Of a stretch of 64,000 nucleotides of DNA, positions 8,020 to 27,937 are shown one piece after another (within the stretch, counting starts at the first letter, position 1; every line of letters begins with the position of its first letter). Source of the DNA: Methylotenera sp. Its GTDB lineage: Bacteria; Pseudomonadota; Gammaproteobacteria; Burkholderiales; Methylophilaceae. Position numbers and translations under genes: made by a program. The notes below the pieces were generated by a model. That model was not told the origin of the DNA. It searched no databases and saw only the letters and a program-made list of their open reading frames with translations. The DNA lies in NCBI RefSeq assembly GCF_029945705.1, contig NZ_JAQSDC010000004.1:62001-126000 (forward strand). The letters run 5' to 3'.

Positions 8020-8048
8020 GGCAAGTGAATGTTAAGTAGTGGTCATCA

Positions 8049-10019: not shown

Positions 10020-10042
10020 TGTCGGCCCTTAATTTGCCAATT

Positions 10043-11728: not shown

Positions 11729-11787
11729 ACCCAAAAAAATAAGGTATACATGGCTTATGCCTCTAGGGAATCCAGTTTAAGCGTCAT

Positions 11788-13077: not shown

Positions 13078-13103
13078 GTTGCTCGCTCTATTGTTTGGTG
13101 TTT

Positions 13104-14264: not shown

Positions 14265-15379
14265 TTCTGACTCATTCTTAGTATATTAAAATAAATTTGT
14301 TCTTGAGCTTCTGCAAGTCGATCCCAAAGGTAGCTTTTAGCTTCCTGATATGCGCACAAGCCTTTTCTCAAGCACTCACTTTCATCTTTCCAGTAGTTGG
14401 CTATATGTTCAGCAAAACCACTGATATCCCCTGTGCTGGCGAGAGATGACCAGTCTGGCTTTAATAGTTCATTTAAGTGGTCAATATCGTAAGCAATCAC
14501 GGGCTTGCTGCTTGCCATTGCTTCTAGCGCCGTCAAGCCAAAGGTTTCCTGTCTGGAAGGCATCACTAAAAAACGACAGTTGCGTAAAACTTCATTTTTT
14601 TGTGTGCCTTCTAAACGACCCTTAAACAGGACAACATCGCTTAAACCAAGTGTTTTAACACTTTGCTTTAAAGCGGATTCGTCTTGCCCTGCCCCCACTA
14701 TCCATAATGGGATATTCAAGTTCTTTTCTTTTAGCATTTTCCATGCCAATAGTAGGTCATCTAAACCTTTATGTTGAATATCCAGTCTGCCTAAGAATAG
14801 GGCGTAGTCACCAAGCATTCCTGGTTGTTGTAATGCACTAGCATTAATGCCGCATGGAATTTTATAAATATCTGCATGTGGTAATAGGGCCTTAAAGTAT
14901 TCGCCCATTTTGTGTGTTTGTACGATGATATGGCGGTGTGGAAAATGTAAGGCACGCTTGCGCATGATGGCTTCAAATGGCAGTTTGTAGCGCTTTTCCC
15001 AGTCTTTGAAAAAATGCCATTGCACGATAGAAATGACTGGCTGTTGCGTAGATTTTTGCAAATTACAAAAGCCAAATGGCGGCGTAAATTCCTCTACAAT
15101 CAGGTCATGAGGTATACGCTTTATTGCTGCAGGTAGTCGACTCAAATAACTTAAATGTGAAGATAATCCCCAACCAGGAATAGTAATGCCTAAGCGCTGG
15201 TAATGAATATTGCTTCTAACAATGCCTTGTTCGCTGCCTTTATAGCTTGCTGTTAGCACCGTGATTTGATGATTTTTCGACAGTCTTGAGTTAATTTCAT
15301 AAGTGCGCACTGGCTGCCCACCTCGTAAAGGGTTATCAAGATCATCGGTATCTGTATGAATAATCCGCATATCGATCAT
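14261..15379 (-). CDS. glycosyltransferase family 4
   Basis: GT4-type enzyme of 372 residues. The N-terminal Rossmann domain carries LDNPLRGGQPVRTYEI, the C-terminal one ALFLGRLDIQHKGLDDLLLA and IVGAGQDESALK, and the E-x7-E motif is in SRQETFGLTALEAMASSKP. It overlaps the genes on both sides by 4 bp, so it lies in one tightly coupled transcript with them. An internal ATG at 15370 (MRIIHTDTDDL) is an alternative start. It should transfer a sugar during repeat-unit assembly; donor and acceptor are not readable from the sequence. Confidence 0.85.
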   Translation of the reverse strand: MIDMRIIHTDTDDLDNPLRGGQPVRTYEINSRLSKNHQITVLTASYKGSEQGIVRSNIHYQRLGITIPGWGLSSHLSYLSRLPAAIKRIPHDLIVEEFTPPFGFCNLQKSTQQPVISIVQWHFFKDWEKRYKLPFEAIMRKRALHFPHRHIIVQTHKMGEYFKALLPHADIYKIPCGINASALQQPGMLGDYALFLGRLDIQHKGLDDLLLAWKMLKEKNLNIPLWIVGAGQDESALKQSVKTLGLSDVVLFKGRLEGTQKNEVLRNCRFLVMPSRQETFGLTALEAMASSKPVIAYDIDHLNELLKPDWSSLASTGDISGFAEHIANYWKDESECLRKGLCAYQEAKSYLWDRLAEAQEQIYFNILRMSQK

Positions 15380-16476
15380 TCAATTAAACTTAATGCGCCA
15401 GCCACGTTTTTTGCAGTGCGTTGCCAGCTGAACTCAGCAATTTTCTTATGCCCTTGCGTAGCGAGGTGTTGACTTGTATGTGTGTTATCTAAGATGCTCT
15501 TTATTTTGTCAGTGAGATCATCTGCGGAGTTTGGGTTAAAAAACACCGCAGCATTACTAAATAACTCCAAGTGCACAGCAATGTTTGAGCAAACTACGGG
15601 CACACCGCAAGCCATGGCCTCTAAAGGCGGTATATTAAAGCCCTCGTCTCTGGAAGCTGTGATAAATAATGCAGCATTTTGATAGAGATTAATAAGTGCA
15701 GATTCGCTCATAAAACCCATATAGTGAACGCGCTTAGTTAACCCTAATGCTTTTAACTGCACTTGCAGTTCGTTAAAGTAGCCTTTATCCCTGATTGCAC
15801 CAACGATAGCCAATTCAAGCTTTGGATAGTCATTTAGCTGCGATAGCATTTCAAAAATAGTTTCGATATTTTTGCGTTTTTCTATGGCGCCCACTGTGAG
15901 TAAATAAGGTTTTTCAATAGGCAATTGCGTTACTAAATGATCTTGATTAAAAACGCTAACATCAACGCCATTGTAAAAGGCAACTATTGGGGCTTTTACG
16001 TTTGTGCAGTAGGCTTCCACTTCAGCTTTAATCGCGAGTGTGGGCGTCAATATTAAACTTGCACGTTTAATTGTGTTTTTTGTGAGTGCGCGTACCAAGT
16101 TGTTCGATAGCCCTTTGTAGGCTTGTGCAAACTTGATTGGGGTTAAATCATGAATAGTCGCAATCAGTTTACAGCGCCCGCAAAACCATGGTGCTAACCT
16201 TTGAATAAGCAAAGCATCTAAATGATAGCGATATACCAGCCATGGTAATAGAATCAAGCGCTCGAACAAAGGGTTAGCAAAAGCCAGTGGCACATATTGA
16301 ACGCCTTTAATGTGATTGGGCGTTACTTGCAATGTAGCAAATTCAGTTTTGGTCACAAATACAATATATTCATGCTCAGGCGCTTCTGTAGGTAGTTGCT
16401 GAACGAGCTCGCGAACAAAGCGTTCTACGCCACCGATGTTTTTACCAAGCACATGTCCATCAATGCCGATACGCAT
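15376..16476 (-). CDS. glycosyltransferase family 4
   Basis: GT4-type glycosyltransferase of 366 residues. It starts MRIGIDGHVLGKNIGGVERF with the acceptor-loop GGVERF. The donor domain reads YLLTVGAIEKRKNIETIFEM, with the family's R/K-K-N motif, then VHYMGFMSESALINLYQNA. The E-x7-E motif is in SRDEGFNIPPLEAMACGVP. This arrangement is typical of mannosyl- or rhamnosyltransferase-like GT4 enzymes, but specificity is not provable. It overlaps the upstream GT2 gene by one base and the downstream GT4 by four. Confidence 0.86.
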   Translation of the reverse strand: MRIGIDGHVLGKNIGGVERFVRELVQQLPTEAPEHEYIVFVTKTEFATLQVTPNHIKGVQYVPLAFANPLFERLILLPWLVYRYHLDALLIQRLAPWFCGRCKLIATIHDLTPIKFAQAYKGLSNNLVRALTKNTIKRASLILTPTLAIKAEVEAYCTNVKAPIVAFYNGVDVSVFNQDHLVTQLPIEKPYLLTVGAIEKRKNIETIFEMLSQLNDYPKLELAIVGAIRDKGYFNELQVQLKALGLTKRVHYMGFMSESALINLYQNAALFITASRDEGFNIPPLEAMACGVPVVCSNIAVHLELFSNAAVFFNPNSADDLTDKIKSILDNTHTSQHLATQGHKKIAEFSWQRTAKNVAGALSLIE

Positions 16477-17423
16477 TATTGAGTCACTTTCTTCATGTTG
16501 GTAACCTTTAATATATCAATTAGTCTTGCCCACGCACATTGCAGTGCTTCGTTATTCACTACACCTAATTTGGGAATTTTGAATAATGCAACTGAGAGGC
16601 GGATTAACGTACCTAAAAAAATAGCTAAACGCGCTGAGCGGGCCTGCGAACTGCCATAATAGTCCTGCACAATCATCATTAAGTGGCGTTGTTGCCAAAG
16701 GCTGTTTCTTACCTTTGCCGCGATATTTTTTGAGCTTGCGCCACCGTAATGCATAATGTCTGCGGCATCATAAAGAATAACTTTTCCATGTTTAGCCAGT
16801 TTTAAGCAAAGCTCTATATCTTCGCAATACATAAAAAACCTTGCATCAAATCCACCTACACTTAAGTAATCTTTGGTACGCATGACCATGCACACGCCTG
16901 ATACCCAGTCGACATTCATCTCTTTTGCCCAGCGGTAATCTCCATCTGTGCCCCGAAACCATCTGGCTTTAGGAAATACTCTATTTAAGCCAAAACTCTG
17001 CATCCATACGCGCATGGCGGTAGGTGCGAAGCCAAAGGTTTTTGGTTGGATTTCACCAGTATTTGGTAAAATCACTCTTGGGCAAATACAACTGACTTCC
17101 TGATGTTTCTCAAGATAGTCCACGAGTATCTGTGGAGTGTTTGTGGTTAAAATGGCATCGCTATTCAGTAGCATGACATATGCCCCCTTAGCCTGTTGAA
17201 CACCTAAATTGTTTGCCAAACCAAAGCCTAAGTTGCTTTTAGATTCAATCAGAACAACCTCTGGGAAGTTTTGTTTTACCATTTCGCAACTGCCATCGAT
17301 TGACGCGTTATCGACAACAATCACCTCTAGTTGATTTGGTGCGTAGGTATAAACCGAGCTTAAGCACTCATTAAGATAGGCTAAGGTGTTGTAACTGACA
17401 ATAATAATGCTGAGATTAGTCAA
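16476..17423 (-). CDS. glycosyltransferase family 2 (WbbL-like)
   Basis: GT-A-fold, inverting GT2 enzyme of 315 residues. Visible motifs are LSIIIVSYNTLAYLNECLSS at the start, VDNASIDGSCEMV, LLNSDAIL in the place of the DxD motif, WVSGVCMVMR, and the acceptor motif YCEDIELCLKLAKHG (ED). The pattern is closest to rhamnosyltransferases of the WbbL/RfbN type. The C-terminus has a hydrophobic stretch (about 265-290) that may bind the membrane. It is cytoplasmic and acts on the lipid-linked repeat unit. It lies 5 bp after the upstream acyltransferase gene. Confidence 0.85.
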   Translation of the reverse strand: MTNLSIIIVSYNTLAYLNECLSSVYTYAPNQLEVIVVDNASIDGSCEMVKQNFPEVVLIESKSNLGFGLANNLGVQQAKGAYVMLLNSDAILTTNTPQILVDYLEKHQEVSCICPRVILPNTGEIQPKTFGFAPTAMRVWMQSFGLNRVFPKARWFRGTDGDYRWAKEMNVDWVSGVCMVMRTKDYLSVGGFDARFFMYCEDIELCLKLAKHGKVILYDAADIMHYGGASSKNIAAKVRNSLWQQRHLMMIVQDYYGSSQARSARLAIFLGTLIRLSVALFKIPKLGVVNNEALQCAWARLIDILKVTNMKKVTQ

Positions 17424-17428
17424 GGCTT

Positions 17429-18040
17429 TTACTTCTGATCAGATTGCTTAGCGACATTTCTTGCTGGCACGCCTAGTAACACGGCATGGTCGGGAAAGCT
17501 TTTATCGACAGCACTATTCATTGAAACTTTAACGTGGGTGCCTAAAGTAATGTTTCCAAAAATCACGGAGCCACCACCCATCATTAAGTGATCCCCAATG
17601 ATGGGCGCTTTGTTTGCATTGATGTCCTCTAGGAGATAGGTTTTGACATCATCAGCCTCTAAATTTTCTTCACAGTAAAAAGGAGAGGCGCATATTGTAT
17701 TTTGATGACCTAGAATGCAGTTTTTACCAATGATAACGTTGGCACCTATGGTGATAAAGTTAGCATGTAGCATCACAAACCCTGGCCCAATCTTGGCAGA
17801 TGAATCTATTTTTACAGCGAAAAAAATGATGTTGATGAAACTCAATAATGAGGCTAACGGCTTTAAGTAATGGTAGAAAAAAAATACTTGCAGCCTATAA
17901 ATAATGCTGCTCAAAGTAGCATGGAGAAAACAAAACCTTAATGCGCGTAGCCAAGTTAATTTTTTATTTTCATAATCACAACGCATTTTCATGTCTAGTC
18001 TAAGTAGCGCTATCGTTTGTCTCGTAGATTGACTCATCAC
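17429..18040 (-). CDS. left-handed beta-helix acyltransferase, CysE-like, His-containing (pair 1, type A)
   Basis: Serine-acetyltransferase-like protein of 203 residues: about 70 N-terminal residues rich in helices and aromatic residues, then hexapeptide repeats forming a left-handed beta-helix (AKIGPGFVMLHANFITIGAN, VIIGKNCILGHQNTI, PIIGDHLMMGGGSVIFGNIT, VPARNVA). The His in GPGFVMLH sits where CysE has its catalytic His. It probably acetylates a sugar of the polysaccharide. Its start overlaps the end of the next-upstream gene by 4 bp. It is clearly paralogous to the protein of 20198-20764: both share the MRCDYE/FRCDYE, IYRLQVFF/LYRFQIFF and AVDKSFP segments. Confidence 0.8.
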   Translation of the reverse strand: MMSQSTRQTIALLRLDMKMRCDYENKKLTWLRALRFCFLHATLSSIIYRLQVFFFYHYLKPLASLLSFINIIFFAVKIDSSAKIGPGFVMLHANFITIGANVIIGKNCILGHQNTICASPFYCEENLEADDVKTYLLEDINANKAPIIGDHLMMGGGSVIFGNITLGTHVKVSMNSAVDKSFPDHAVLLGVPARNVAKQSDQK

Positions 18041-18645
18041 TTGACCTCAGCAATAGGAATACCTAATAGCGGGTTCCATTGTGTGATTTTTTCAATCGAA
18101 TCAATACGTCTACGGCGCGCTGGAATGCCGAACAGACTGCATCCTTGTTTTGTTTCCGTCAGCATGACCACCGAGTTTGGCTTGATTTGGATGCCATCAG
18201 CAATGTTAATGGGGCGCATTACTCTAGCTCCGCTACCTAACACACAATAATTGCCGATTGTAATAGCGTCTTTATTTAAATCCACGCCCTCTATCATGCC
18301 TAAGCTGAGAGTGTTCCTTCCTAGGAAAGTGCAGTTTTTGCCAATGATTGCAGAGGAGCATATGCCTATGGCCACACCTTCAAATACTAGGCCTGGGCCT
18401 ATAATAGCCATTGGAGAAACTTCATTTTTGCAATACAAAAGTTCGATGATTGACAGAAATCGAGTCAAAAATCCAAGGTTGTTGTAAACGCAAAAATGCG
18501 AAACTCGATACAAAATAACGCCGACCATGCCCTGTTTGACGCAGATTCTTAGTTTGTTTAGCAGGCTGGGGCGCTTGCCTTCTAAAAGCAGCCTTCTTTG
18601 GAAATCTGCTTTGATATTGCTGATTGTTTCTCTAAGTGTAACCAT
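18037..18645 (-). CDS. left-handed beta-helix acyltransferase-like, lacking the CysE His (pair 1, type B)
   Basis: Hexapeptide-repeat protein of 202 residues. Helical N-terminus (ADFQRRLLLEGKRPS), then beta-helix turns (MAIIGPGLVFEGVAIGICSS, AIIGKNCTFLGRNTLSLG, ITIGNYCVLGSGARVM) and the end IKPNSVVM...GIPARRRR. At the position of the CysE catalytic His the sequence reads GPGLVFEG, so that His is missing. It is a close paralogue of the protein of 20764-21387 (shared RRL-LEGK, LYR, IIGKNCTF and ADGIQIKPNSV/ADGVQIKPNSV). It overlaps its type A neighbour by 4 bp, suggesting equal production and perhaps a mixed complex. Confidence 0.78.
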   Translation of the reverse strand: MVTLRETISNIKADFQRRLLLEGKRPSLLNKLRICVKQGMVGVILYRVSHFCVYNNLGFLTRFLSIIELLYCKNEVSPMAIIGPGLVFEGVAIGICSSAIIGKNCTFLGRNTLSLGMIEGVDLNKDAITIGNYCVLGSGARVMRPINIADGIQIKPNSVVMLTETKQGCSLFGIPARRRRIDSIEKITQWNPLLGIPIAEVK

Positions 18646-18658
18646 TTTTAATTATTCA

Positions 18659-20116
18659 TTAATGATGAAATAAAAATTGTCTAATACGGGTTCTTTTAGC
18701 AAGCGTAATGCCACCCATGACATAAAGTAAAAATACATAGAGTATCAGTGCTATTGGTACACAAAAGATCCATAAATATTTACCATTTGCTAACACTGAA
18801 AACATTGATAGTTTGAGGCCCATGTCGAAAAAGATAAAAGTAATGAGTGATGCGAGGCTCGGTCGCCAAGTGCTGAGTAATAAAAGTTTAATTGGAAAAA
18901 CTGATCTTAATAGCCTAAGCCTTATGATGACCGTCGCTAGCATGGCTAAAACTAAAGCCAGCGCAGCCCCCGTTGCGCCGCTATGCATCACCAGTACAAC
19001 GGTGAGGGCAGCTGCACTTAGTCCTCCAACCAAGATTGAAATCATATCACTCTTATAGTCTTTACGTGCAGTCATAACTTGCGAGAGCACTTGATCCACC
19101 ATGACCAGCCCAGATGCAATCATTAATAACATTAAAGCGTGCTTAGCGAGCAAGTAATGATCGCCATATAAAAACATTAAAAAATTCTGTGCAAAGGCCG
19201 CGGTAATCGCGATACACGGAAAAAGTGCGAGAGATGTAATCGAAACGAGTTGTGTCGAGACCCTTCTTAGCGCAACGTTTGATTGATTAGCTTTATTAAC
19301 AAAGACATGGTTTGAGGTCACGGCCAATACAGAGGGGATAAGTAATATCATGTCGAACAATTGATAAGCAACGCCAAAAATGGCATTTTCAGCATCACTT
19401 ATGAGTGCCGGAATAAGCACAAGGGCAGCATTTCTTAATGTCAAGAATGCAAAAATAATCACCAGAAACTTTGGTGCATCACGTAGCACATAAGCTACAT
19501 CTTTTTTATTTGGCAACCAATGGTCCGCTTCCAGCATTTGGCTAAGCACGTAAAAGCTATAAAAGGCAATGCCCCAGCGAGTCAACACAAAAACCCATAT
19601 CACGTCAGTAACAGAGAAGTTTAAATAAATCAGTAAAATTGAAACGGTACATCGAATTAAATATTCGATGCCATTATATTTGCCAACAGCGTAAGTTTTC
19701 CCAACACCAATCAGTGCGGATTGTACGCATTGATAAATGCCAGATGGAATTATGCTCAAAGCTGCTAGTTTTAAGCCATGGTCAATGCCTGGGCTATAAA
19801 CGTCTAGATAAGAGATGGATAAGTAAGTGATTATCAGAAATATTGAAACACCCAGCATCACGGAGTTCGTGGCTAAAAACAGAGCCCAGCGCCCTTTGTT
19901 TTCAGAAGCCATTTCTGTGGCTAGCCAACGGTGCATGCCTAGCATGCCAAGAAACTCTGCAATGACAAGGTAGGTCACGACGGTTCTAAAAACACCAGCA
20001 TCCTGTGGGGAGTGCCTAGCTAAAACTAGAAATAGCAAAAAGGAGAGTACCATCCCTAACATTCGCGCTATAGCAACTGAGCCACCACCTTTGACTACGG
20101 AGTCACTCTTACTCAT
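18659..20116 (-). CDS. Wzx-type polysaccharide flippase
   Basis: Membrane protein of 485 residues with about 12-14 hydrophobic helices, as in the MOP/PST flippase family. It starts MSKSDSVVKGGGSVAIARM, with the typical Gly/Ala-rich amphipathic first helix, followed by LVLARHSPQDAGVFRTVVTY. A middle loop has QLFDMILLIPSVLAVTS and a late stretch has FLYGDHYLLAKHALMLLM, a Wzx-like motif (F-G-x-x-Y). It would move lipid-linked repeat units across the inner membrane to the Wzy-like polymerase. An upstream TTG at 20125 adds three residues, but ATG 20116 is the more natural start. The gene sits exactly between the two acyltransferase gene pairs. Confidence 0.85.
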   Translation of the reverse strand: MSKSDSVVKGGGSVAIARMLGMVLSFLLFLVLARHSPQDAGVFRTVVTYLVIAEFLGMLGMHRWLATEMASENKGRWALFLATNSVMLGVSIFLIITYLSISYLDVYSPGIDHGLKLAALSIIPSGIYQCVQSALIGVGKTYAVGKYNGIEYLIRCTVSILLIYLNFSVTDVIWVFVLTRWGIAFYSFYVLSQMLEADHWLPNKKDVAYVLRDAPKFLVIIFAFLTLRNAALVLIPALISDAENAIFGVAYQLFDMILLIPSVLAVTSNHVFVNKANQSNVALRRVSTQLVSITSLALFPCIAITAAFAQNFLMFLYGDHYLLAKHALMLLMIASGLVMVDQVLSQVMTARKDYKSDMISILVGGLSAAALTVVLVMHSGATGAALALVLAMLATVIIRLRLLRSVFPIKLLLLSTWRPSLASLITFIFFDMGLKLSMFSVLANGKYLWIFCVPIALILYVFLLYVMGGITLAKRTRIRQFLFHH

Positions 20117-20197
20117 AAAAATCAATCAAAAATAATGAAAGACACTTATTTTGGTAGACACATAAAATATGGCGCATCAATATAAATCCATTTTTCT

Positions 20198-20764
20198 TTA
20201 TGAGAGTGATAAGTTTTTGGCAGGAACGCCAATCAGTATGGCATTGCTTGGGAAGCTTTTATCAACGGCAGTGTTGACTGATATTTTGGAGCGACTGCCT
20301 ATGCTTATGTTGCCAAAAATGGCGCAGCCTACACCGCACAATACATCATCTCCAATGATTGGGCCTTGGTCAGATACGCCTGCTTCGGTTTCGATGACGT
20401 AAGCGGGACCAATAGAGTTTTGTTGCGCCAAAATACAACGTTTACCTAACACTACATTTTTACCTATAAAAATATAATTTGGATGAAGCATTAACAATCC
20501 CTCACCTATCTGCGTTTTTGAATGAATATTGACAGTAAAAATCAGACTATTGATACCTTTGAAGATAGACGCAAAGATACCTAAGTGGTTAAGGTGAAAA
20601 AATATTTGAAATCGATACAGTATTTGACTAATGACAGCATGGTTAGTTAAAAAAGCTAACACACGTAAGGCTGTCAGCTGTTTATGTTCGTAATCACAAC
20701 GGAACTGCATGTCACTGCGAATAAGGGTAATTGTACTTAGAAGTGATTGAGATTGCTTATCCAT
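20198..20764 (-). CDS. left-handed beta-helix acyltransferase, CysE-like, His-containing (pair 2, type A)
   Basis: Hexapeptide acyltransferase of 188 residues from ATG 20764. A longer frame starts at 20806, but the 20764 start overlaps the upstream stop by one base (TAATG) and matches the start of its paralogue at 17429-18040. The N-terminal part reads LIRSDMQFRCDYEHKQLTAL, and beta-helix turns include TQIGEGLLMLHPNYIFIGKN, VVLGKRCILAQQNSIG and PIIGDDVLCGVGCAIFGNIS, ending IGVPAKNLSLS. The His of MLHPN is in the CysE catalytic position. The downstream gap to the flippase gene is about 80 bp, larger than elsewhere in the operon. Confidence 0.8.
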   Translation of the reverse strand: MDKQSQSLLSTITLIRSDMQFRCDYEHKQLTALRVLAFLTNHAVISQILYRFQIFFHLNHLGIFASIFKGINSLIFTVNIHSKTQIGEGLLMLHPNYIFIGKNVVLGKRCILAQQNSIGPAYVIETEAGVSDQGPIIGDDVLCGVGCAIFGNISIGSRSKISVNTAVDKSFPSNAILIGVPAKNLSLS

Positions 20765-21387
20765 TAGTGACTCATTGCTAGGGTTTGAGACAGAATAGGG
20801 CTCCAAGACTTGATTAATGTCATAGGCACTATACCAACCGATTTTGCTGGGAACCCAGCAATAATCGTTCCGGATTCTTTGACTGAGGTCATTAATACCG
20901 AGTTAGGCTTGATTTGCACGCCATCCGCAATAGTGACGGGGTTAATCACCTTAACGTTGTGACCAATGACACAATAGTCACCAATACGAATGCGGTCGTT
21001 CATCAGATCGATACCTTCCATTGCGCCCAGTGTTGGGGTTGCTTTACCCATGAAGGTACAGTTTTTCCCAATAATTACGCTAAAGCCTAAGCTCACTCCC
21101 CCCATGTCGCTTAACACCAACCCAGGCGCTATGATGGCTCTTGGGTCAAGCTCATTATGACAATAATGAAATTCAGGGAACTTAAGTAGACGTACTGCAC
21201 TTTTTAAAATTAAGTTGTTTTTGTAATAGAAGTAACGTTTAAGCCGATATAGCAATACTGAGGTCACGCCTTTACTTGTGATAATGCTCAGAACACTCCA
21301 AAAATTGATTGCTTTACCTTCTAAAGTCAGCCTTCTTGCGAGATCTTGTTTGAAATCTTCTAAGGTTTGCTTGAATGTAATGTGCAT
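20764..21387 (-). CDS. left-handed beta-helix acyltransferase-like, lacking the CysE His (pair 2, type B)
   Basis: Hexapeptide-repeat protein of 207 residues, first gene of the exopolysaccharide cluster in this window. The helical N-terminus contains LARRLTLEGKAINFWSVL. Beta-helix turns include RAIIAPGLVLSDMGGVSLG, VIIGKNCTFMGKATPTLG and IRIGDYCVIGHNVKVI, then ADGVQIKPNSVLM. The CysE catalytic His is replaced (APGLVLSDM), as in its paralogue at 18037-18645. Product identity is limited to the fold; acyl donor and acceptor are unknown. Its promoter must lie in the 291-bp gap shared with the divergent carrier-protein operon. Confidence 0.78.
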   Translation of the reverse strand: MHITFKQTLEDFKQDLARRLTLEGKAINFWSVLSIITSKGVTSVLLYRLKRYFYYKNNLILKSAVRLLKFPEFHYCHNELDPRAIIAPGLVLSDMGGVSLGFSVIIGKNCTFMGKATPTLGAMEGIDLMNDRIRIGDYCVIGHNVKVINPVTIADGVQIKPNSVLMTSVKESGTIIAGFPAKSVGIVPMTLIKSWSPILSQTLAMSH

Positions 21388-21474
21388 CGCTAAATTTAGC
21401 TCAATCTTTTTAATAGGGTTGTTTTCATCGAAACTGTCAAGTTCACATTACTTTAAAGCTACAAATCAGTGATA

Positions 21475-21483
21475 TGCTATAAT
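21475..21483 (+). promoter_or_regulatory. extended -10 promoter of the carrier-protein operon
   Basis: TGCTATAAT is a perfect extended -10 element (TGn-TATAAT) on the plus strand, with no good -35, as expected for that promoter class. It would give a leader of roughly 190 nt before the carrier-protein start at 21679. The rest of the 291-bp divergent gap holds the hairpin listed separately and no visible gene. The promoter of the minus-strand EPS operon was not identified. Confidence 0.45.
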
Positions 21484-21576
21484 TTTTACATGTTGTATTT
21501 TACGCAGTGTAGGAATGTTTAATATAGTCCATTCAGGCTAGTAGCCCATCAGATAATGCTTTTAAGGCATGTGTCA

Positions 21577-21594
21577 ATAGCCAATTTTGGCTAT
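21577..21594. promoter_or_regulatory. 18-bp dyad in the leader of the carrier-protein operon
   Basis: ATAGCCAA (21577-21584) and TTGGCTAT (21587-21594) form a perfect inverted repeat with a two-base centre. It is not followed by a T-run, so it is not a terminator. A smaller GGCTA/TAGCC-like element lies 40 bp upstream. It may be an operator for the divergent region or a leader stem. Confidence 0.4.
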
Positions 21595-21678
21595 TTACGT
21601 ATAAATTAAAGCCAGTTAGGATGTAGATGGCATAGTTTTTGCCAAGTATTTTTAATAAAAATTTGCAGGGGGTAACAC

Positions 21679-21939
21679 ATGGAAGCTGTCAATAATGAAA
21701 TCATCTCAAGAGTGCAACAAGTCATTGCTAATTATGCAGAGCTTGGCGCAAACGCGGTTGCCTTATCAGCCGATGAAGATTTATTCGCACGAGGCATGAG
21801 CTCGCGCGCTTCTGTAGGCGTGATGCTGGGCTTGGAATCTGAGTTTGATATTGAGTTTCCAGATGCAATGTTAAGGCGTGATGTATTTGAAAGTATTAGT
21901 TCTATTAGTAACGCAGTGAATAATTTACTCAATAAGTAA
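21679..21939 (+). CDS. acyl carrier protein-like carrier for the amino acid ligase
   Basis: Carrier protein of 86 residues. The family's four-helix layout is visible, with the phosphopantetheine site in LFARGMSSRASVGVMLGLE: Ser42 is the likely attachment residue, and the usual Asp before it is replaced by Ser41. The downstream helix has LESEFDIEFPDAMLRRDVFE, typical of ACP-fold helix III. The start is fixed by a strong ribosome site (AGGGGG) eight bases upstream. It is the first gene of the operon that includes the SerRS-like ligase, so its job is presumably to carry an aminoacyl thioester, not a fatty acid. Confidence 0.88.
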   Translation: MEAVNNEIISRVQQVIANYAELGANAVALSADEDLFARGMSSRASVGVMLGLESEFDIEFPDAMLRRDVFESISSISNAVNNLLNK

Positions 21940-21996
21940 TGCTTATTAAATATTTAAATCAAAAAATAGCGTCGGGAAAATGTGTGTATTGTCTTT

Positions 21997-23148
21997 ATGA
22001 ATGAGTTGATTGCAAGTTTAGATAAGGTCGGTCGCGAAATTGCTAAAGTCCATGCCTACGATGTGGATGCAAGCCCTCGCTTTCCAAAAGAGGCCGTAGA
22101 AGCCATGCGTGCTATCGGTGCTTTTATTTGGCCTATTCCCAAGGAGTATGGGGGCATGGGGGCAAGCCCGATTGAGTTAGCAAAAGCCTGTAAGGTCATT
22201 GGTCAATATTGCTCAGCTTCAGCGGCGGTGCTTTCTATGCATTACACGCAAATTCTATCTGTGGTATGTCACGCAAAAGATGATGATAATCTTAAAGACT
22301 ACATGCGTCGTGCTGCACGCGAAAATCGCTTAATTGCTTCAGTTACTTCAGAAGTTGGTCCTGGTGGCAATATGCGTAACAGTAGTTGCGCAGTTGAGCT
22401 TGAAGGCGATCAATATACATTGTTTAAAGACGCCACTACCGTTTCATATGGTAGCTATGCGGATGATCTGATGATTACGGCTAGAAAAAATGCCAATGCT
22501 ACGGCTGGCGATCAAGTGTTGGTGATTGCAGAAAAAGGCATGTTTGAACTTAAGGACATTGGAGAGTGGGATACTTTAGGTATGCGTGGCACCTGTAGTC
22601 CTCCCGCTAAGGTATACGCAAAAGGTTCTGCCTGGCAAGTGATGGCTGCGCCCTTTGCTGATATAGCGACCTTCACGATGGTACCCACTTCACATATTTT
22701 TTGGTCTGCATGGTGGTTAGGTTTAGCTACAGATGCGACCAATAAAGCAAGAGAGCTGTTGCGCGCCAAAGGTCGCTCAAATCCAGGTACTACACCGCTT
22801 GGTGCACATCGCGTTGCCGACTTAGATGCGGCGTTGCAAAGCATGGAGTATGAGGTCATGGGTTTAGCCAGAGAGTATAGCGAAGCGCTTGCCGCGAACG
22901 ATGTACAAAAATTGGGCGGCATGGCGTTTGCCTTGCGGATTAATGCGTTAAAGCTTAATAGCTCTCGTAACGTAGTCGCCATTGTCTCGGAGGCGCTCGC
23001 GATTTGTGGTATTCAAGCCTACAAAAATAAAGGCCAGTTTGCGCTAGGACGCCATCTACGTGACGCCTATTCCTCTATCATGATGGTGCATAACGATCGA
23101 ATTCAGCAAACAAATGCATCCATGCTGCTGATTCATAAGGGGTTTTAA
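21997..23148 (+). CDS. acyl-CoA dehydrogenase-family flavoprotein
   Basis: Acyl-CoA dehydrogenase-fold protein of 383 residues from ATG 21997. A GTG at 21982 would add five residues, so the start is not certain. The N-terminal helical domain has AIGAFIWPIPKEYGGMGASP and the middle beta domain has LIASVTSEVGPGGNMRNSS and WDTLGMRGTCSPPAKVYAKG (DTLGMRGT is family-typical). The C-terminal helical domain ends ALAICGIQAYKNKGQFALG then LRDAYSSIMMVHNDRI. It should bind FAD. In this operon its substrate is more likely an aminoacyl or acyl group on the carrier protein than a CoA ester, by analogy with prolyl-carrier dehydrogenases in pyrrole synthesis; that is inference. Confidence 0.82.
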   Translation: MNELIASLDKVGREIAKVHAYDVDASPRFPKEAVEAMRAIGAFIWPIPKEYGGMGASPIELAKACKVIGQYCSASAAVLSMHYTQILSVVCHAKDDDNLKDYMRRAARENRLIASVTSEVGPGGNMRNSSCAVELEGDQYTLFKDATTVSYGSYADDLMITARKNANATAGDQVLVIAEKGMFELKDIGEWDTLGMRGTCSPPAKVYAKGSAWQVMAAPFADIATFTMVPTSHIFWSAWWLGLATDATNKARELLRAKGRSNPGTTPLGAHRVADLDAALQSMEYEVMGLAREYSEALAANDVQKLGGMAFALRINALKLNSSRNVVAIVSEALAICGIQAYKNKGQFALGRHLRDAYSSIMMVHNDRIQQTNASMLLIHKGF

Positions 23149-23152
23149 ATAA

Positions 23153-24067
23153 ATGAGTGATTTAAATACGCAACACTTAGCGTTTAAACAGCAGCTGTTT
23201 GACCATAAATTATTATTTGGTAGCGGTGTGAATGGTATTGTCGGCCGCAGCTCGAAAATAGTAGAGCTTGTTGCGGCTTTGCACGGAATGGTGGATAAAG
23301 AGTCTGTTAAAGATGGTGCACAAAAAGTCGCTTTCCCTCCAGTCGTCCCGCGTGAGTTGCTGCGCACTGTGGGTTATATGAATAACTTTCCTCAGCTTTC
23401 TGGCTCAATACACTCTTTCTCTGGGGACGATAGACAGCACCTTGCTTTACAAGAGACGGTAAAAAATGGGGAGGATTGGTCGCCGCATCTTTCGCAAACA
23501 GATGTCACCTTAACTCCCGCCAGTTGCTATCCACTTTACCCAACGTTGGCGGGCAATCTGCCAGAAGGCGGGGCATTATTTGATTTGAATTGTTATTGCT
23601 TTAGGCACGAACCCTCCAATGATCCGGCACGTTTAATGAGTTTTGAAATTCGTGAAAATGTACGCGCAGGTTCGCCAGAAGAAGTGCAAAAATGGCGGCA
23701 TAGTTGGTTAGATCGTGGGCATAACCTGCTTGAGTCACTCGGTTTGTCAGTGGTATTAGATACTGCAAGTGACCCATTCTTTGGACGTGGCGGTCGCATG
23801 ATGAAAGCAAGCCAAAAAGAGTTAGAGCTTAAGTTTGAGCTACTGGTGGATATTTGGGGCAAAGATAATCCAACCGCATGTGCTTCATTTAATTATCACC
23901 AAGACCATTTTTCACATCTTTTTGGCATTCACCTAGCTGATGGCGCAGATGCACACACCGCCTGTTTGGGTTTTGGCATTGATCGTTTAGTCATTGCTTT
24001 GCTTAAAACACACGGCTTTGATATGAACGCTTGGCCAGCCAGCGTGCGTGAAAAACTAGCATTATGA
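23153..24067 (+). CDS. amino acid:[carrier protein] ligase (class II SerRS-like)
   Basis: Protein of 304 residues that is a stand-alone class II aminoacyl-tRNA synthetase catalytic core without a tRNA-binding arm. Motif 2 is CYCFRHEPSND (Arg151), motif 3 is CLGFGIDRLV, and LTPASCYPLYP precedes them. C125, E168 and C271 fit the three zinc ligands known for atypical SerRS and the Bradyrhizobium ligase Bll0957: the E-to-C distance of 103 agrees, and the C-to-E distance is 43 against 45 as I recall it. This family activates small amino acids (Gly or Ala) with ATP and loads them onto the phosphopantetheine of a carrier protein. The carrier gene lies two genes upstream. The stop overlaps the next gene's ATG as ATGA. 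Confidence 0.88.
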   Translation: MSDLNTQHLAFKQQLFDHKLLFGSGVNGIVGRSSKIVELVAALHGMVDKESVKDGAQKVAFPPVVPRELLRTVGYMNNFPQLSGSIHSFSGDDRQHLALQETVKNGEDWSPHLSQTDVTLTPASCYPLYPTLAGNLPEGGALFDLNCYCFRHEPSNDPARLMSFEIRENVRAGSPEEVQKWRHSWLDRGHNLLESLGLSVVLDTASDPFFGRGGRMMKASQKELELKFELLVDIWGKDNPTACASFNYHQDHFSHLFGIHLADGADAHTACLGFGIDRLVIALLKTHGFDMNAWPASVREKLAL

Positions 24068-25053
24068 GTCCAGTTGATACCTCACAGATTTTTGCGCGCT
24101 TGCCAGAAAATTTTGTGCCGCATGTACTGCATTTGTCTGAGAAAAACTTTCGTGAAACCAATTGCTATTCAGATTTAATGATCGAAATAGTGAACGGCTT
24201 AGGGCTTAATCCATTGGCTTGTCTTGGCTACACGCTAGCCGCTGATTTTGAAGGGGATCAATGGACCTTTGGTAAGCCTGCACATCATGATTTAGAGCGT
24301 TTGTATGGTATTCGGATTGAGGAACTTTCGCTATATCGGTCATTAACCGCGCAACTTGTGACTCAAGTCTCGCGAGGTGCAATTCCTCTGCTAGAGGCAG
24401 ATGCATTCCACTTGCCAGATACAGCAGGCATTGATTACCGCAATAACCATGTTAAAACCACCATCGGCATCACACATATTGATGCTGCAAAAAATGTGAT
24501 GCATTACTTTCATAACGCTACATTTGCTAAGTTAGAAGGCGAAGATTTTAACGGCGTTTTAGCCCCACTCAATTCAAATAACAAAGGTTACTTGCCGCCT
24601 TATTGCGAAATTGCGAAGCTTAACCAAGTCTTTAAATTAAGTGAAGATACATTGCGTCTTCGTGCGTACGACATTGCAGCCTCTCATTTGCGTAAGCGAC
24701 CCACTGAGAACCCAATTAAGGCATATGCTAATGCGATACTGGAGCATCAACAAACCATTGCTGCTGATGGCAATGACGCCTATCACGCTTATACTTTTGT
24801 GGCCCCAAGGCAATTGGGCGCATCACATGAACTTGGTGCGCAATTTTTGCGCTGGTTAGATGGTGAAAATCCTCATTTACTTGAAGCGGCTAACGCGTTT
24901 GATGGCATTGCGACCCTATCTAAATCTTTAGTGCTCAAACTTGCACGTGTTGCCCACAGCGGTAGACCTGTAGATTTAACCTCTATTTTAGGCGATATGT
25001 CGGTACATTGGGAGCATGCGGATCAGCAACTACGCGCATCATTTACGCTATGA
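24064..25053 (+). CDS. DUF1839 family protein
   Basis: Protein of 329 residues matching DUF1839 (PF08893) in overall sequence: ETNCYSDLMIEIVNGLGLNP, CLGYTLAADFEGDQWTFGKP, LERLYGIRIEEL, and the acidic IPLLEADAFHLPDTAG followed by a His-rich KTTIGITHIDAAKNVMHYFH. No signal peptide or membrane segment is seen. The segment LYGIRIEELSLYR and the Asp/His-rich centre recall peptide-handling or cysteine-protease-like folds, but no catalytic set can be assigned. DUF1839 genes are known neighbours of amino acid:[carrier protein] ligase genes. Here it is coupled to that gene by a 4-bp overlap, so it probably takes the aminoacyl group from the carrier or acts next to it. Confidence 0.8.
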   Translation: MSPVDTSQIFARLPENFVPHVLHLSEKNFRETNCYSDLMIEIVNGLGLNPLACLGYTLAADFEGDQWTFGKPAHHDLERLYGIRIEELSLYRSLTAQLVTQVSRGAIPLLEADAFHLPDTAGIDYRNNHVKTTIGITHIDAAKNVMHYFHNATFAKLEGEDFNGVLAPLNSNNKGYLPPYCEIAKLNQVFKLSEDTLRLRAYDIAASHLRKRPTENPIKAYANAILEHQQTIAADGNDAYHAYTFVAPRQLGASHELGAQFLRWLDGENPHLLEAANAFDGIATLSKSLVLKLARVAHSGRPVDLTSILGDMSVHWEHADQQLRASFTL

Positions 25054-25084
25054 TATGTCTTAATTAAATAAAGTCAGTCAAGCT

Positions 25085-27619
25085 ATGCTGTTAACTGAGG
25101 TATCAGAGCAAGAAATCATTTTACTTCACCAAGGATTTGAATGGGGAGCGTCGTCTGCAAATGCGTATGCAATACCTGACGATATTGATGCAAGTGTCAC
25201 CTTCAAACCAGCCATCGTACCTTGCACAGTGGCGATGCTTATTGAACATGCGCATGAACTTGTCCATTTAGATGCGCAAGATCATTGGTATCGCACTACG
25301 TTTAGTGCGGACCCTAAAGCCTACCAAAAAACGCTGCTGCAATTGGATGGCTTGCTAACGTTTGCTGATGTTTATTTGAACGGCGCGCTGATATTGCAGT
25401 CTTTGAATGCTTACCATGTGCATGAGGTGGATGTAACCCTATTGCTGCAAGCTAGCAACCAGTTGGCGATATGCTTTCGTGCTATTAGGCCATTTTATAC
25501 AGCCAAACATCCGCGTGCAAAATATATCACACGCCTAATCAATGAACGTCATTTACGATTTATTCGCACACCTGTGTTGGGTTATACGCCGGGTTTCTCT
25601 GCACCAACTAAACATGTAGGGCCTTATCGACCCATTCGATTGATTCGTCAAAATGCATTCAGCATCACATCTTCTTGGGTGAGTACACAATTACTGGGTG
25701 ATGACCAAGGTCTGGCAGAAGTGAATGTGATGCTTCAAGCGCTCGAGCAGTTGCCAGATTCGGCCAGCTTAAACTTGTATGACGAGGCAACAAACCAAGT
25801 GCTCAAGAGTGAGCTACTCAGCGTAACTCTCGAAAGCAACAATAACATTTCACTCAAGGGTACGTTAAGTTGCAAAGTCTATGCTTATTGGCCGCATACT
25901 CATGGCTCACCCAAACGTTACCAGCTTAAGTTGGCATTAAATGCGGGTCAGCAAGTTTTTAATATTACGCTAGGTCATTATGGTTTTAGACGTATTGAGC
26001 GCGCAAATCTAGAAACCTTTTCGCTACATTATAACGGCGTGCCGCTTTATTTTAGAGGAGCTTGTTGGACTCCAATGCACCCTACCAGCTTATTGGTCAG
26101 CTATGCAGCACTGCTGCAAAGGCTTACTTTATTAAAAAATGCGGGCGTTAATATGCTCCGCATTCCAGGCAATATGCTGTATGAAAGTGATGATTTTTAT
26201 GCCTTATGTGATGAGCTTGGCATTCTGGTATTTCAAGACTTTGCTTTTACCAATTTTGATTATCCCGAAACAGAAGATTTTATTACCAGTGTAAAAAAAG
26301 AAATCACGGATTTTCTAAATAAACATGGCAGCCGCCCTAGCATGACCGTACTATGTGGTGGTAGTGAAGTTGCGCAACAAGCATGCATGATGGGTGTGCC
26401 AGTTGACCAAAGCGACCACGTTTTATTTACTGAACTTATCCCTAAGCTCACGCAAGCGCGGGCACCCAATGTGCCTTATACCGTTTCAAGCCCTTATAAT
26501 AGCCAAGGCCTACCTTTTCATACTGGGGATGGACCATCCACTTACTTTGGCGTAGGTGGATATAGGCGTGATTTTGATGACGCACGCGTTTATAAGGGTC
26601 GTTTTATTGCTGAGTGTTTACCGTTCTCACACATACCAGAAGATGAAAGTCTGCGTACTTTTTGGGGTGGTGAAATTCCACCTCCTCATCATCCATTGTG
26701 GAAAGAGGGCGTTACCCGCGACCCAGGTTCAGGTTGGGACTTCTCTGACATCACTGATTTCTACATGGAAAAGTTGTTTGAATTGAGTGCAGTGAAGCTC
26801 AGGTCCATTGAGCCAGACCGTTATTTAAGATACTGCCGCGCTACTTTAGTCGAAGTCGTTGAAACCACGCTCTCCATTTTTCGCGCAAACTCGGCAGAAG
26901 GCCGTGCAGCACTTGTTTGGAATTTACACGATTTAAAACCAGGCGCAGGTTGGGGTTATATTGATGTATTAGGCCGCCCAAAATCTGCTTTTTATGCTTT
27001 GTCCAGAACCGCGCAACCTACTACAGTTTTGTTTGTTGATGAAGGGTTAGATGGTTTAGCGGTTTACCTTACGCATGATGGCAACACTGCACTCGATTGT
27101 CAGCTTACGATAACACTTGTGACTAGTGAGGGGAAGCTGTTTGAGCAAGGCACATTGCCTATCAACCTTAATCCTCGTGGGCTTGTTCGGTTAAGTGTAG
27201 ATAGTGTGATTGGCAGATTTGTTGACTCCAGCCATGCTTATCGCTTTGGCCCGCGTGCATTCTCGGCTGTGGTGGCTCAATTGCACCATGCTAATGGAGC
27301 ATTAATTACGCAAAAAGTATATGCGCCTCCTTGCGAAACACACACCATGATTAACGACGCCGGCCTTACTGCAATCGTTAAGAAGCAATTAAATGGTGAT
27401 TATTTATTGGATATATCCACGCAACATCCAGCATTCTTTGTCTCGATTGAATTACCGAATTTTACATTAAGCGATAATTACTTTCATATCATCCCTGGTT
27501 TTAATAAGCAGGTCTTAATCACAGCGCAGCAGGCTGCACAAACTCCTAATGGTCGACTACGCGCTTTAAATGCTAAAGCTAGTAGCGCCATTATTGACGG
27601 TATTTCAGAGGTGTCTTAA
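25085..27619 (+). CDS. glycoside hydrolase family 2 (beta-mannosidase-like) protein
   Basis: Protein of 844 residues with a GH2 layout: an N-terminal jelly-roll (QDHWYRTTFSADPKAYQKT, LLQLDGLLTFADVYLNG), an immunoglobulin-like domain, a TIM barrel (about residues 310-650) and C-terminal beta domains. In the barrel, YFRGACWTPMHP and AGVNMLRIPGNMLYESDDFY are typical. VLCGGSEVAQQ holds the acid/base Glu (GNNE in classical enzymes, altered here to GGSE) and RFIAECLPFSHIP the nucleophile Glu. There is no signal peptide, so it appears cytoplasmic. It is the last gene of the carrier-protein operon, 31 bp after the DUF1839 gene. The altered GNNE motif may mean an unusual substrate or a glycosyl-transferring role. 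Confidence 0.82.
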   Translation: MLLTEVSEQEIILLHQGFEWGASSANAYAIPDDIDASVTFKPAIVPCTVAMLIEHAHELVHLDAQDHWYRTTFSADPKAYQKTLLQLDGLLTFADVYLNGALILQSLNAYHVHEVDVTLLLQASNQLAICFRAIRPFYTAKHPRAKYITRLINERHLRFIRTPVLGYTPGFSAPTKHVGPYRPIRLIRQNAFSITSSWVSTQLLGDDQGLAEVNVMLQALEQLPDSASLNLYDEATNQVLKSELLSVTLESNNNISLKGTLSCKVYAYWPHTHGSPKRYQLKLALNAGQQVFNITLGHYGFRRIERANLETFSLHYNGVPLYFRGACWTPMHPTSLLVSYAALLQRLTLLKNAGVNMLRIPGNMLYESDDFYALCDELGILVFQDFAFTNFDYPETEDFITSVKKEITDFLNKHGSRPSMTVLCGGSEVAQQACMMGVPVDQSDHVLFTELIPKLTQARAPNVPYTVSSPYNSQGLPFHTGDGPSTYFGVGGYRRDFDDARVYKGRFIAECLPFSHIPEDESLRTFWGGEIPPPHHPLWKEGVTRDPGSGWDFSDITDFYMEKLFELSAVKLRSIEPDRYLRYCRATLVEVVETTLSIFRANSAEGRAALVWNLHDLKPGAGWGYIDVLGRPKSAFYALSRTAQPTTVLFVDEGLDGLAVYLTHDGNTALDCQLTITLVTSEGKLFEQGTLPINLNPRGLVRLSVDSVIGRFVDSSHAYRFGPRAFSAVVAQLHHANGALITQKVYAPPCETHTMINDAGLTAIVKKQLNGDYLLDISTQHPAFFVSIELPNFTLSDNYFHIIPGFNKQVLITAQQAAQTPNGRLRALNAKASSAIIDGISEVS

Positions 27620-27839
27620 TAGTGTATGACACTCTATATTGTTGGGAAAGAGTCAACCAAACACGCTCTTGTAAGCCTCTATATATAAGGGTTTAAATAT
27701 ATATTAAAAATATGTTACCCCTAAAGTTACCCCAAACATCTTATACTCTTCATAGCCTTGCTTAATCCTCAGCATTAATTTTACCCTAGTATGTGTTTTA
27801 AACATATCGTATAACTTACAGATGTTCATTAATTAAATA

Positions 27840-27858
27840 TGTTCACGTTACGTGAACA
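27840..27858. promoter_or_regulatory. 19-bp palindromic operator, copy 1 (gap 27620-27937)
   Basis: TGTTCACGTTACGTGAACA is a perfect 9-1-9 palindrome. Half-sites (TGTTCA or TGAACA) also occur at 27823, 27870, 27892 and 27939. The left part of this 318-bp gap (27620-27820) is AT-rich with a small direct repeat of GTTACCCC (27713 and 27728 region) and no gene. Likely the binding site of the AbiEi-type antitoxin. Confidence 0.65.
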
Positions 27859-27908
27859 ATTATAATAAATGAACAAAAGTGTTGACTATGATGTTCAATT
27901 TAATGTAA

Positions 27909-27927
27909 TGTTCACGTAACGTGAACA
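27909..27927. promoter_or_regulatory. 19-bp palindromic operator, copy 2
   Basis: TGTTCACGTAACGTGAACA, the same palindrome with only the central base changed, 69 bp after copy 1 and ending 10 bp before the antitoxin start codon. The similarity goes on past the palindrome (ATAAATGAACAAAA at 27865 and 27934), so the whole 69-bp unit looks duplicated. Its position implies negative autoregulation. Confidence 0.65.
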
Positions 27928-27937
27928 AAATAAATAA

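Follow-up and report, generated by a model that had tools for sequence, protein, structure and literature searches.

D-alanylation by the Dlt system combines an adenylating ligase, a carrier protein and DltB/DltD, and leads to transfer to an envelope polymer. In lincosamide synthetases (CcbD/LmbD), CcbD transfers an amino acid from its carrier onto an amino sugar: according to the mechanistic account of PMC12945683, a Cys-His-Glu site acting by a ping-pong mechanism passes proline from the carrier protein to the amine of a thiooctose. For the ligases related to seryl-tRNA synthetase (SerRS) that load amino acids onto carrier proteins, a 2010 note added in proof described the gene neighbourhood, listed in it an uncharacterised open reading frame (ORF) and a glycosidase, and predicted that an amino acid becomes joined to a cell-surface sugar through the sugar's amino group, with amide formation assigned to the uncharacterised ORF (PMC2922099). 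Here, we analyse a neighbourhood of this type in a 64,000-nucleotide stretch of a Methylotenera sp. genome (contig NZ_JAQSDC010000004.1, positions 62,001 to 126,000; hereafter the window). It consists of five genes that encode a carrier protein, a flavoenzyme with an acyl-CoA dehydrogenase fold, a SerRS-like amino acid:[carrier protein] ligase, a DUF1839 protein and a GH2 protein. This cassette is real, conserved and previously noticed in print. With a probability of about 0.55, it serves carrier-based aminoacyl transfer, for which envelope polysaccharide is the most likely destination.

The cassette shares with the system of Bradyrhizobium Bll0957 (PDB 3mey) and with the neighbourhood of Atu2574 a ligase of the same family (NF005479), a carrier and a redox enzyme. 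Atu2574, the uncharacterised ORF of the 2010 note (PMC2922099), is here taken to be a DUF1839 protein. The window has all five genes, whereas nine ligase loci that lack DUF1839 also lack GH2. Like Dlt, the cassette includes an activating ligase and a carrier and would serve transfer to an envelope polymer. Unlike Dlt, it includes a papain-fold transferase and a flavoenzyme, and no DltB or DltD was found among the annotated neighbours in the window. An earlier note on this DNA had proposed that the loaded amino acid is attached to, or removed from, a sugar; this idea is partly supported by the present data but is not new, since it stands in the part of the 2010 paper cited above (PMC2922099). 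What is new beyond 2010 is the set of fold-level relatives, a natural cysteine experiment, the helper set and the genetic location. Among the papers listed by searches of the open-licence literature, none was seen to name a product for the cassette.

Conservation of the five-gene cassette

The ORF listing of the window confirms five co-directional ORFs on the plus strand at 21679-27619 (Table 1). The earlier note had described them as one operon; all five are present, and their order is kept in most of the relatives read. The ATGA overlap that it reported is that of the ligase and DUF1839 genes, and the other genes are separated by 42 or 57 bases (carrier-flavoenzyme, depending on the start codon), 4 bases (flavoenzyme-ligase) and 31 bases (DUF1839-GH2). 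A promoter scan of 21300-28000 found no promoter-like sites above the level of shuffled sequence.

A sample of 300 genomes of the order holds 7 with DUF1839, and one of 398 genomes of the phylum holds 16; every one of them (7/7 and 16/16) also encodes a ligase over the model cut-off. The ligase itself passes this cut-off in 8 and 28 genomes of the same samples, 1 and 12 of which lack DUF1839. DUF1839 was found in 141/299 genomes of the family of G158, which we take to be the Burkholderiaceae, and in 29/151 genomes of the family of G341, and a search of the genome_contigs set with the window protein returned 21 loci. We compared 90 long loci, the window excluded; nearly all had been chosen for DUF1839, many are closely related and a few come from the same genome. 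The five genes occur in window order in 65 of these loci: 49 show carrier-flavoenzyme-ligase-DUF1839-GH2 as such, 15 have in addition a second, opposite DUF1839 and one has GH2 split in two ORFs. Eight more loci hold all five genes with a part inverted, GH2 and carrier being divergent in five, the carrier alone in one, and DUF1839 lying beyond GH2 on the opposite strand in two. The remaining loci show no ligase (11, due to contig ends, erosion or a solitary DUF1839) or are partial or otherwise arranged (6). The exact window order is also found in annotated plasmid records of Azospirillum and Rhizobium, R. binae (L055) lacking GH2. The neighbourhood survey that the earlier note had suggested thus finds the five genes to be one fixed cassette. 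The ligases of L214 and L197 had been missed by gene calls based on codon scores and were recovered by a six-frame search with hidden Markov models.

Nine of the 12 phylum genomes that have the ligase and lack DUF1839 were read: the flavoenzyme adjoins the ligase in 9/9 and the carrier does in 7/9, and GH2 is found in 0/9. Since the flavoenzyme is kept in loci devoid of DUF1839 and GH2, loading and flavoenzyme form the core of the system, and DUF1839 and GH2 its second half. The persistence of the flavoenzyme beside the ligase fits an action on the carrier-bound aminoacyl group, and is what oxidation on the carrier, as put forward in the earlier note, would lead one to expect from gene content. 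In the order sample, L068 carries the carrier-flavoenzyme-ligase trio in a different cluster, possibly for another product, with two AMP-binding enzymes, an SDR, a SnoaL and an esterase-type protein and two pyridoxal phosphate enzymes.

Carrier protein, ligase and flavoenzyme

The carrier matches PP-binding (E-value 2.3e-5) and NF005480, the latter above its cut-off; its match to DltC models (5.7e-6) lies below theirs. Ser42 is invariant (43/43 aligned carriers). The earlier note had described it as standing in an unusual SSR context: a T or S, and not D, precedes it in 40/43 carriers and is therefore the norm of the subfamily, so that only Arg43 (3/43) is rare. In 8 of the first 51 loci, the cassette directly adjoins a gene for an AcpS-type pantetheinyl transferase (Pfam PF01648 in both proteins tested).

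The ligase belongs to NF005479, 'amino acid--[acyl-carrier-protein] ligase' (1.6e-118; 395.3 bits against a cut-off of 357), and aligns at 4.7e-76 (phmmer) with Bll0957, whose structure is solved and whose biochemistry has been studied. C125, E168 and C271, which we take to be its zinc ligands, as the earlier note did, are kept across 46 aligned ligases (C125 in 45, with one gap; E168 and C271 in 46) and are also placed by the alignment to 3mey. R151, E153 and R278 are likewise kept across the 46 proteins. The amino acid specificity that we assume for Bll0957 is the basis on which glycine or alanine is proposed below.

The flavoenzyme has an acyl-CoA dehydrogenase N domain (8.3e-11) and its model reaches a predicted local distance difference test (pLDDT) score of 91.9. 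Comparison of this model with dehydrogenases gave template modelling (TM) scores of 0.81 (9w61, a butyryl-CoA dehydrogenase) and 0.84/0.87 (acyl-CoA dehydrogenase 3pfd), against 0.86/0.82 for the monooxygenase DszC and 0.84/0.81 for TdsC; the group D flavin monooxygenase fold (DszC/nitrososynthase) is therefore not clearly better than that of dehydrogenases, and the two are not separated. The top profile matches are 7p98 (2.9e-26) and butyryl-CoA dehydrogenase 9w60 (5.8e-26), and those that follow include 3m9v (2.2e-23), DnmZ (1.8e-22), nitrososynthase (1.1e-19), TdsC (2.1e-19) and DszC (3.5e-18). We take positions 376 of medium-chain acyl-CoA dehydrogenase (MCAD) and 254 of isovaleryl-CoA dehydrogenase to be those of the catalytic glutamate. 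Both were mapped by hand, the former via the alignment with 7p98, which has Thr at this position. The glutamate of classical acyl-CoA dehydrogenases is absent at both positions among 44 aligned proteins: the MCAD position corresponds to Val364 and is Ile or Val in 44/44, and position 261 is K, R, Q, S or A in 37/44 and D in 5/44, with no Glu among the six commonest residues. The analogy to prolyl-carrier dehydrogenases drawn in the earlier note is weak because of this absence, and was rejected as a test of mechanism, the catalytic base being missing. Furthermore, an N-D/E-R motif follows the Val364 position (N and R in 44/44, D in 42/44) and is present in 8/9 of the DUF1839-lacking loci.

Predicted fold of DUF1839

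The window protein matches PF08893 with 310.6 bits (1.6e-92) against a Pfam cut-off of 22.5, and a sequence search against solved structures returned four chance matches only. Its AlphaFold2 model, computed from a 42-sequence alignment, has a mean pLDDT of 94.6 and a predicted TM score of 0.92. Foldseek comparison of this model with the PDB gave 18 matches at E<=0.001, all of them AziU3/U2, CtaG or CcbD, that extend over the whole length (TM 0.50-0.62 over 329-371 alignment columns), the best being AziU3/U2 7wuw (1.5e-8). Among the matches listed, those to peptidases have a TM score by query length of <=0.25 and E of 0.036 or worse. The model thus predicts a carrier-dependent acyltransferase fold for DUF1839, and this fold supports the suggestion of the earlier note that DUF1839 hands on the loaded amino acid. 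CtaG and AziU3/U2, the best matches, belong to other pathways that, to our knowledge, include no SerRS-like ligase, and are 14-18% identical to DUF1839.

CcbD, which matches the model over its full length (TM 0.50-0.60), provides DUF1839 with a mechanistic relative. It differs in that an A-domain does the loading there and a SerRS-like ligase here, in a sequence identity of 12-13%, and in the order of its triad, which is unlike that of DUF1839 according to the family comparison in PMC10318531. The same comparison assigns DUF1839 to the papain-like superfamily and gives its triad as C(T/S)H (PMC10318531). In our model, Cys34 opens a helix (34-45). Cys34 is kept in 47/51 aligned DUF1839 proteins, and His129 and His150 in 51/51; His129 is replaced by Arg in five divergent copies outside this alignment. 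These copies represent a second kind of DUF1839 (L171:15257-16249, L172:3417-4412, L177, L180 and L191) that adjoins a divergent GH2 in 3/5 of the loci.

Loss of the cysteine in duplicated DUF1839 genes

We surveyed 133 DUF1839 copies in 110 genomes or records, excluding rows that had no genome assignment. In 77/110 genomes, the one copy read belongs to the ligase operon and has the cysteine (some genomes counted as one-copy, such as G722 and G731, have two DUF1839 matches, of which one was read), and 2/110 have two such copies. In 19 genomes, the operon copy has lost the cysteine: Cys34 is replaced by Arg or Gln, His129 and His150 remain, and there are also changes of Lys131 to Arg and of Thr132 to Ser or Ala. 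All of them (19/19) carry a second, cysteine-bearing copy, located on the same contig and on the opposite strand in 18/19 and at the end of another contig in G158. Among 18 regions picked for two DUF1839 copies close together, 16 show the cysteine-less/cysteine-bearing pattern; the exceptions are G775, with two cysteine-bearing copies, and G880, with one cysteine-bearing copy and a divergent cysteine-less copy beside another GH2. Of the one-copy genomes with the same genus label, nine were read: the complete cassette, cysteine included, is present in three, a cysteine-bearing copy with no ligase nearby in five, and G749 has Ala at the cysteine position and no ligase.

Seventeen of the 19 genomes carry the genus label g96, the others being G747 (label g341) and a Cupriavidus plasmid record (L060); given this distribution, the 19 cases probably result from one duplication and not from 19 events. 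The pattern supports Cys34 as the catalytic residue and suggests that a paired, pseudoenzyme-containing transferase would operate in those genomes. In other loci, a solitary cysteine-less DUF1839 was seen on a Gemmatimonadaceae contig (L020:9932-10930) that shows no cassette in the 20.9 kb read, and three genomes with the genus label g82 (G875, G942 and G957) have 6, 3 and 4 DUF1839 matches, possibly decaying copies.

Association with envelope polysaccharide genes

In the window, the cassette lies beside an exopolysaccharide cluster (Table 1), whose Polysacc_synt flippase is just under the Pfam cut-off (28.0 vs 28.2) and one of whose hexapeptide-type transferases is above it. Around 13 loci, Glycos_transf_1 was found in 11 of 128 non-cassette neighbours (131 proteins less three long ones that were excluded from the scan), GNVR in 5, Wzz and Polysacc_synt_3 in 3 each and Bac_transf in 2. 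Among 134 control proteins, no glycosyltransferase family is found in the 25 of 206 families listed, hence <=1 protein each (p 0.002 for Glycos_transf_1). These controls are genes of <1,200 residues whose ends lie before 13,200, taken from 13 of 20 control regions; the positions of these regions were hand-picked on the same contigs as the cassettes and are thus not random. Counted per locus with iterated profiles, polysaccharide markers occur in 8/13 loci and 0/20 controls (p 1e-4), WZX counts having been dropped from this tally due to contamination by a flippase-hydrolase fusion and the profile seeds coming partly from the test loci, which favours the test side. Un-iterated searches, whose seeds also came in part from test loci, retrieved markers in 6 of the same 13 loci. 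By group, the un-iterated searches gave 34/40 loci for the Burkholderiaceae set (from 39 closely related genomes), 9/20 loci of another group, 2/8 plasmid loci and 2/21 genome_contigs loci, and 0/20 controls. The polysaccharide genes that the earlier note expected beside the cassette are therefore enriched there; their presence is frequent but not constant.

In B. cenocepacia (L197), a WcaJ-type transferase gene and a Crp regulator precede the five cassette genes, which are followed by a sigma-54/VpsR regulator, ManC, a glycosyltransferase and a GNVR protein. In published descriptions of the Bep region, berB is BCAM1342 and berA BCAM1349 (PMC9684580), and ManC is BCAM1340 (PMC3584217). By synteny, the L197 cassette would be part of this Bep/bec biofilm-polysaccharide region, and becF and becH-K, from their position, would be cassette genes. 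According to the screen data of PMC5507470, a transposon insertion in becG, annotated as acyl-CoA dehydrogenase, lowers biofilm from 1.25 (wild type) to 0.84, i.e. by 33% from the table (the legend of Fig 1 says at least 40% for all mutants), and gives smooth colonies with unchanged growth and motility. The window differs from this region: it comes from a Methylophilaceae-related genome, has another exopolysaccharide cluster, and its annotated cassette neighbours include neither a Crp nor a sigma-54 regulator.

Besides the bias of the search seeds mentioned above, several points weigh against a polysaccharide role. No marker was found in 19/21 genome_contigs and 6/8 plasmid stretches, some of which are cut by contig ends, nor in the stretches searched of L002 and L003, the nearest Methylophilaceae relatives. 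The becG defect is the mildest of its table, and the small gene that precedes it, becF, although represented in the library, is not among the hits reported for the biofilm screen (PMC5507470); moreover, a polar effect could cause the becG phenotype. The Bep repeat, as given in the structural data of PMC7084887, consists of exclusively alpha-linked Gal-Glc-Gal-Man and contains no amino sugar, and therefore offers neither an amine acceptor nor a beta-mannoside for GH2. The polymer had been extracted under alkaline conditions (0.3 M NaOH; PMC7084887), which would strip esters and not amides; hence an O-aminoacyl group is compatible with the published structure. This leaves three options: an ester-linked group, a different acceptor molecule, or loss of the group at a later stage.

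Three loci (L175, L176 and L178) have cassette remnants, i.e. carrier and/or flavoenzyme with DUF1839, between the WcaJ-type and Wzc genes of a WcaJ-Crp-Wzc polysaccharide locus. Since ligase and GH2 are missing there, the module is dispensable in these lineages. L168 has an eroded cassette with carrier, ligase and two DUF1839 copies. By eye, a WaaA-like gene lies beside the cassette in both L002 and L003.

GH2 protein and tandem hydrolase

The GH2 protein has N-terminal GH2 and Ig-mannosidase domains (Pfam) and aligns over most of its length with beta-mannosidase 5n6u (7.1e-45). Its acid/base residue is Glu in 41/43 proteins (Asp in 2) and its nucleophile is Glu in 43/43. Inspection by eye revealed no signal peptide in the GH2 and DUF1839 proteins of the window. 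In 25 of the first 51 cassette loci, a tandem alpha/beta hydrolase of ~600 residues is encoded close by. According to Pfam, it is fused to a polysaccharide flippase in L072 (2460-5768; 1103 residues), and flippase and hydrolase are neighbours in L071; a 1108-residue protein (L070:14373-17696) in the same cluster as the L072 fusion has tandem alpha/beta hydrolase parts. A link to exosortase A via this hydrolase was rejected: the six proteins tested are related to TIGR03100/TIGR03101 and fall under both cut-offs, TIGR03100 has no match at E<=0.001 in the window's own genome, and a literature search for a link between exosortase A and the cassette gave nothing.

Proposed function and alternatives

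We propose that the ligase makes an aminoacyl-AMP, probably from glycine or alanine as suggested by Bll0957, and loads the phosphopantetheine of the carrier. The flavoenzyme would then oxidise the carrier-bound aminoacyl group, by dehydrogenation or oxygenation, and Cys34 of DUF1839 would take over the acyl group and pass it to an amine, possibly a hydroxyl, of the acceptor, in the manner of CcbD, as its predicted fold and cysteine pattern suggest. We regard this succession of ligase, flavoenzyme and DUF1839 steps as a probable transfer pathway. From the gene neighbourhood, the most likely acceptor would be a sugar in the precursor of an envelope or biofilm polysaccharide, an assignment for which we see an even chance. 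GH2 may process it, joined by the tandem alpha/beta hydrolase in about half of the first 51 loci. A tentative and on balance improbable extension is that the cassette is a Gram-negative, cytoplasmic counterpart of Dlt that places an amino acid, oxidised on the carrier beforehand, as ester or amide on lipid-linked precursors of biofilm-matrix polysaccharides; an alkali-labile linkage would then explain its lack in the published Bep structure, and the Cupriavidus-like transferase would be a pair of a cysteine-bearing and a cysteine-less subunit. If an ester or amide does decorate the matrix polysaccharide, it would be a charge-changing group that alkaline extraction could miss. The purpose of the SerRS-like ligases, left open by the note of 2010 (PMC2922099), becomes directly testable with a cassette beside biofilm polysaccharide clusters for which regulators, a repeat structure and a mutant phenotype are available.

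The product of the cassette might instead be a small molecule that stays free, such as an amino-sugar glycoside bearing an aminoacyl or oxidised aminoacyl group, a signal or a toxin, and nearness to polysaccharide genes would then reflect shared regulation or sugar supply. This is possible, if doubtful: the cassette does occur on plasmids and in genomes showing no polysaccharide genes in the stretch read, and the 18 top-ranking structural matches of DUF1839 belong to what we take, in part, to be antibiotic-type small-molecule pathways. The Bep repeat devoid of amino sugar, as published, points in the same direction (PMC7084887). However, neither an exporter nor a resistance gene was found among the annotated recurrent neighbour clusters (hydrolase, AcpS, Crp and SDR; a subset was annotated), and the markers in most Burkholderiaceae-set loci, the flippase fusion of L072 and the smooth colonies and reduced biofilm of the becG mutant (PMC5507470) argue for a polysaccharide.

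Two other roles of DUF1839 concern the enzyme itself. Papain-fold enzymes often hydrolyse, and DUF1839 may release the oxidised amino acid from the carrier as a thioesterase or editing hydrolase, the pathway being one of amino acid oxidation and not of transfer. The nine loci read that combine flavoenzyme and ligase in the absence of DUF1839 imply that loading and oxidation are usable without its transfer step; against this, the significant fold matches are full-length carrier-pathway enzymes, the peptidases fall far behind them and GH2 is a near-constant partner, which makes hydrolysis unlikely. Still more improbable is the proposal, made from context in PMC10318531, that DUF1839 might act on cell-wall glycans in a way that depends on acyl-CoA. 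The papain-like placement and C(T/S)H triad given there speak for it (PMC10318531), whereas DUF1839 is tied to a carrier-protein ligase and the window protein shows no secretion signal by eye. Transfer of a carrier-bound aminoacyl group therefore remains the reading that we prefer.

Features of the window

Table 1. Positions of the cassette genes, their key residues and the adjacent polysaccharide cluster in the window
Feature	Position	Strand	Evidence or content
Polysaccharide (exopolysaccharide) cluster	6454..21387	-	Wzy_C, Wza (Poly_export), GT1 x3, GT2 x1, flippase, hexapeptide-type transferases
Intergenic stretch between polysaccharide cluster and cassette (divergent genes)	21388..21678	.	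291 bases
Carrier protein, acyl/aminoacyl, 86 aa	21679..21939	+	PF00550; NF005480 over cut-off
Pantetheine attachment Ser42 of carrier	21802-21804	+	43/43 in family
Acyl-CoA-dehydrogenase-fold flavoenzyme, 383 aa	21997 (ATG)..23148; alternative GTG start 21982	+	N domain, model
SerRS-like amino acid:[carrier protein] ligase, 304 aa	23153..24067	+	NF005479 over cut-off; solved relative Bll0957
ATGA overlap, ligase stop / DUF1839 start	24064..24067	+	Sequence
DUF1839 papain-fold presumed aminoacyltransferase, 329 aa	24064..25053	+	PF08893; AlphaFold2 model and Foldseek; conservation
DUF1839 residues	Cys34 24163-24165; His129 24448-24450; Thr132 24457-24459; His150 24511-24513	+	Conservation
GH2 protein, beta-mannosidase-related over most of length, 844 aa	25085..27619	+	GH2 domains; beta-mannosidase alignment
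GH2 catalytic residues	Acid/base Glu428 26366-26368; nucleophile Glu510 26612-26614	+	Alignment, 43 proteins

Within the polysaccharide cluster, 10043-11734 (minus strand) encodes a 563-residue protein that has no Pfam match at 1e-5 and looks like a glycoside hydrolase by eye. Directly 3' of the cassette, an AbiEi/AbiEii-type toxin-antitoxin pair (27938-29849, plus strand) is recognised by Pfam, and PADLOC gives a weak match to its second gene only. It is followed on the minus strand by a type I restriction enzyme subunit (30019-32352; PADLOC REase_I, 8.1e-131) and, near it, by a protein (32571-33989) with a single weak PADLOC match (1.5e-7).

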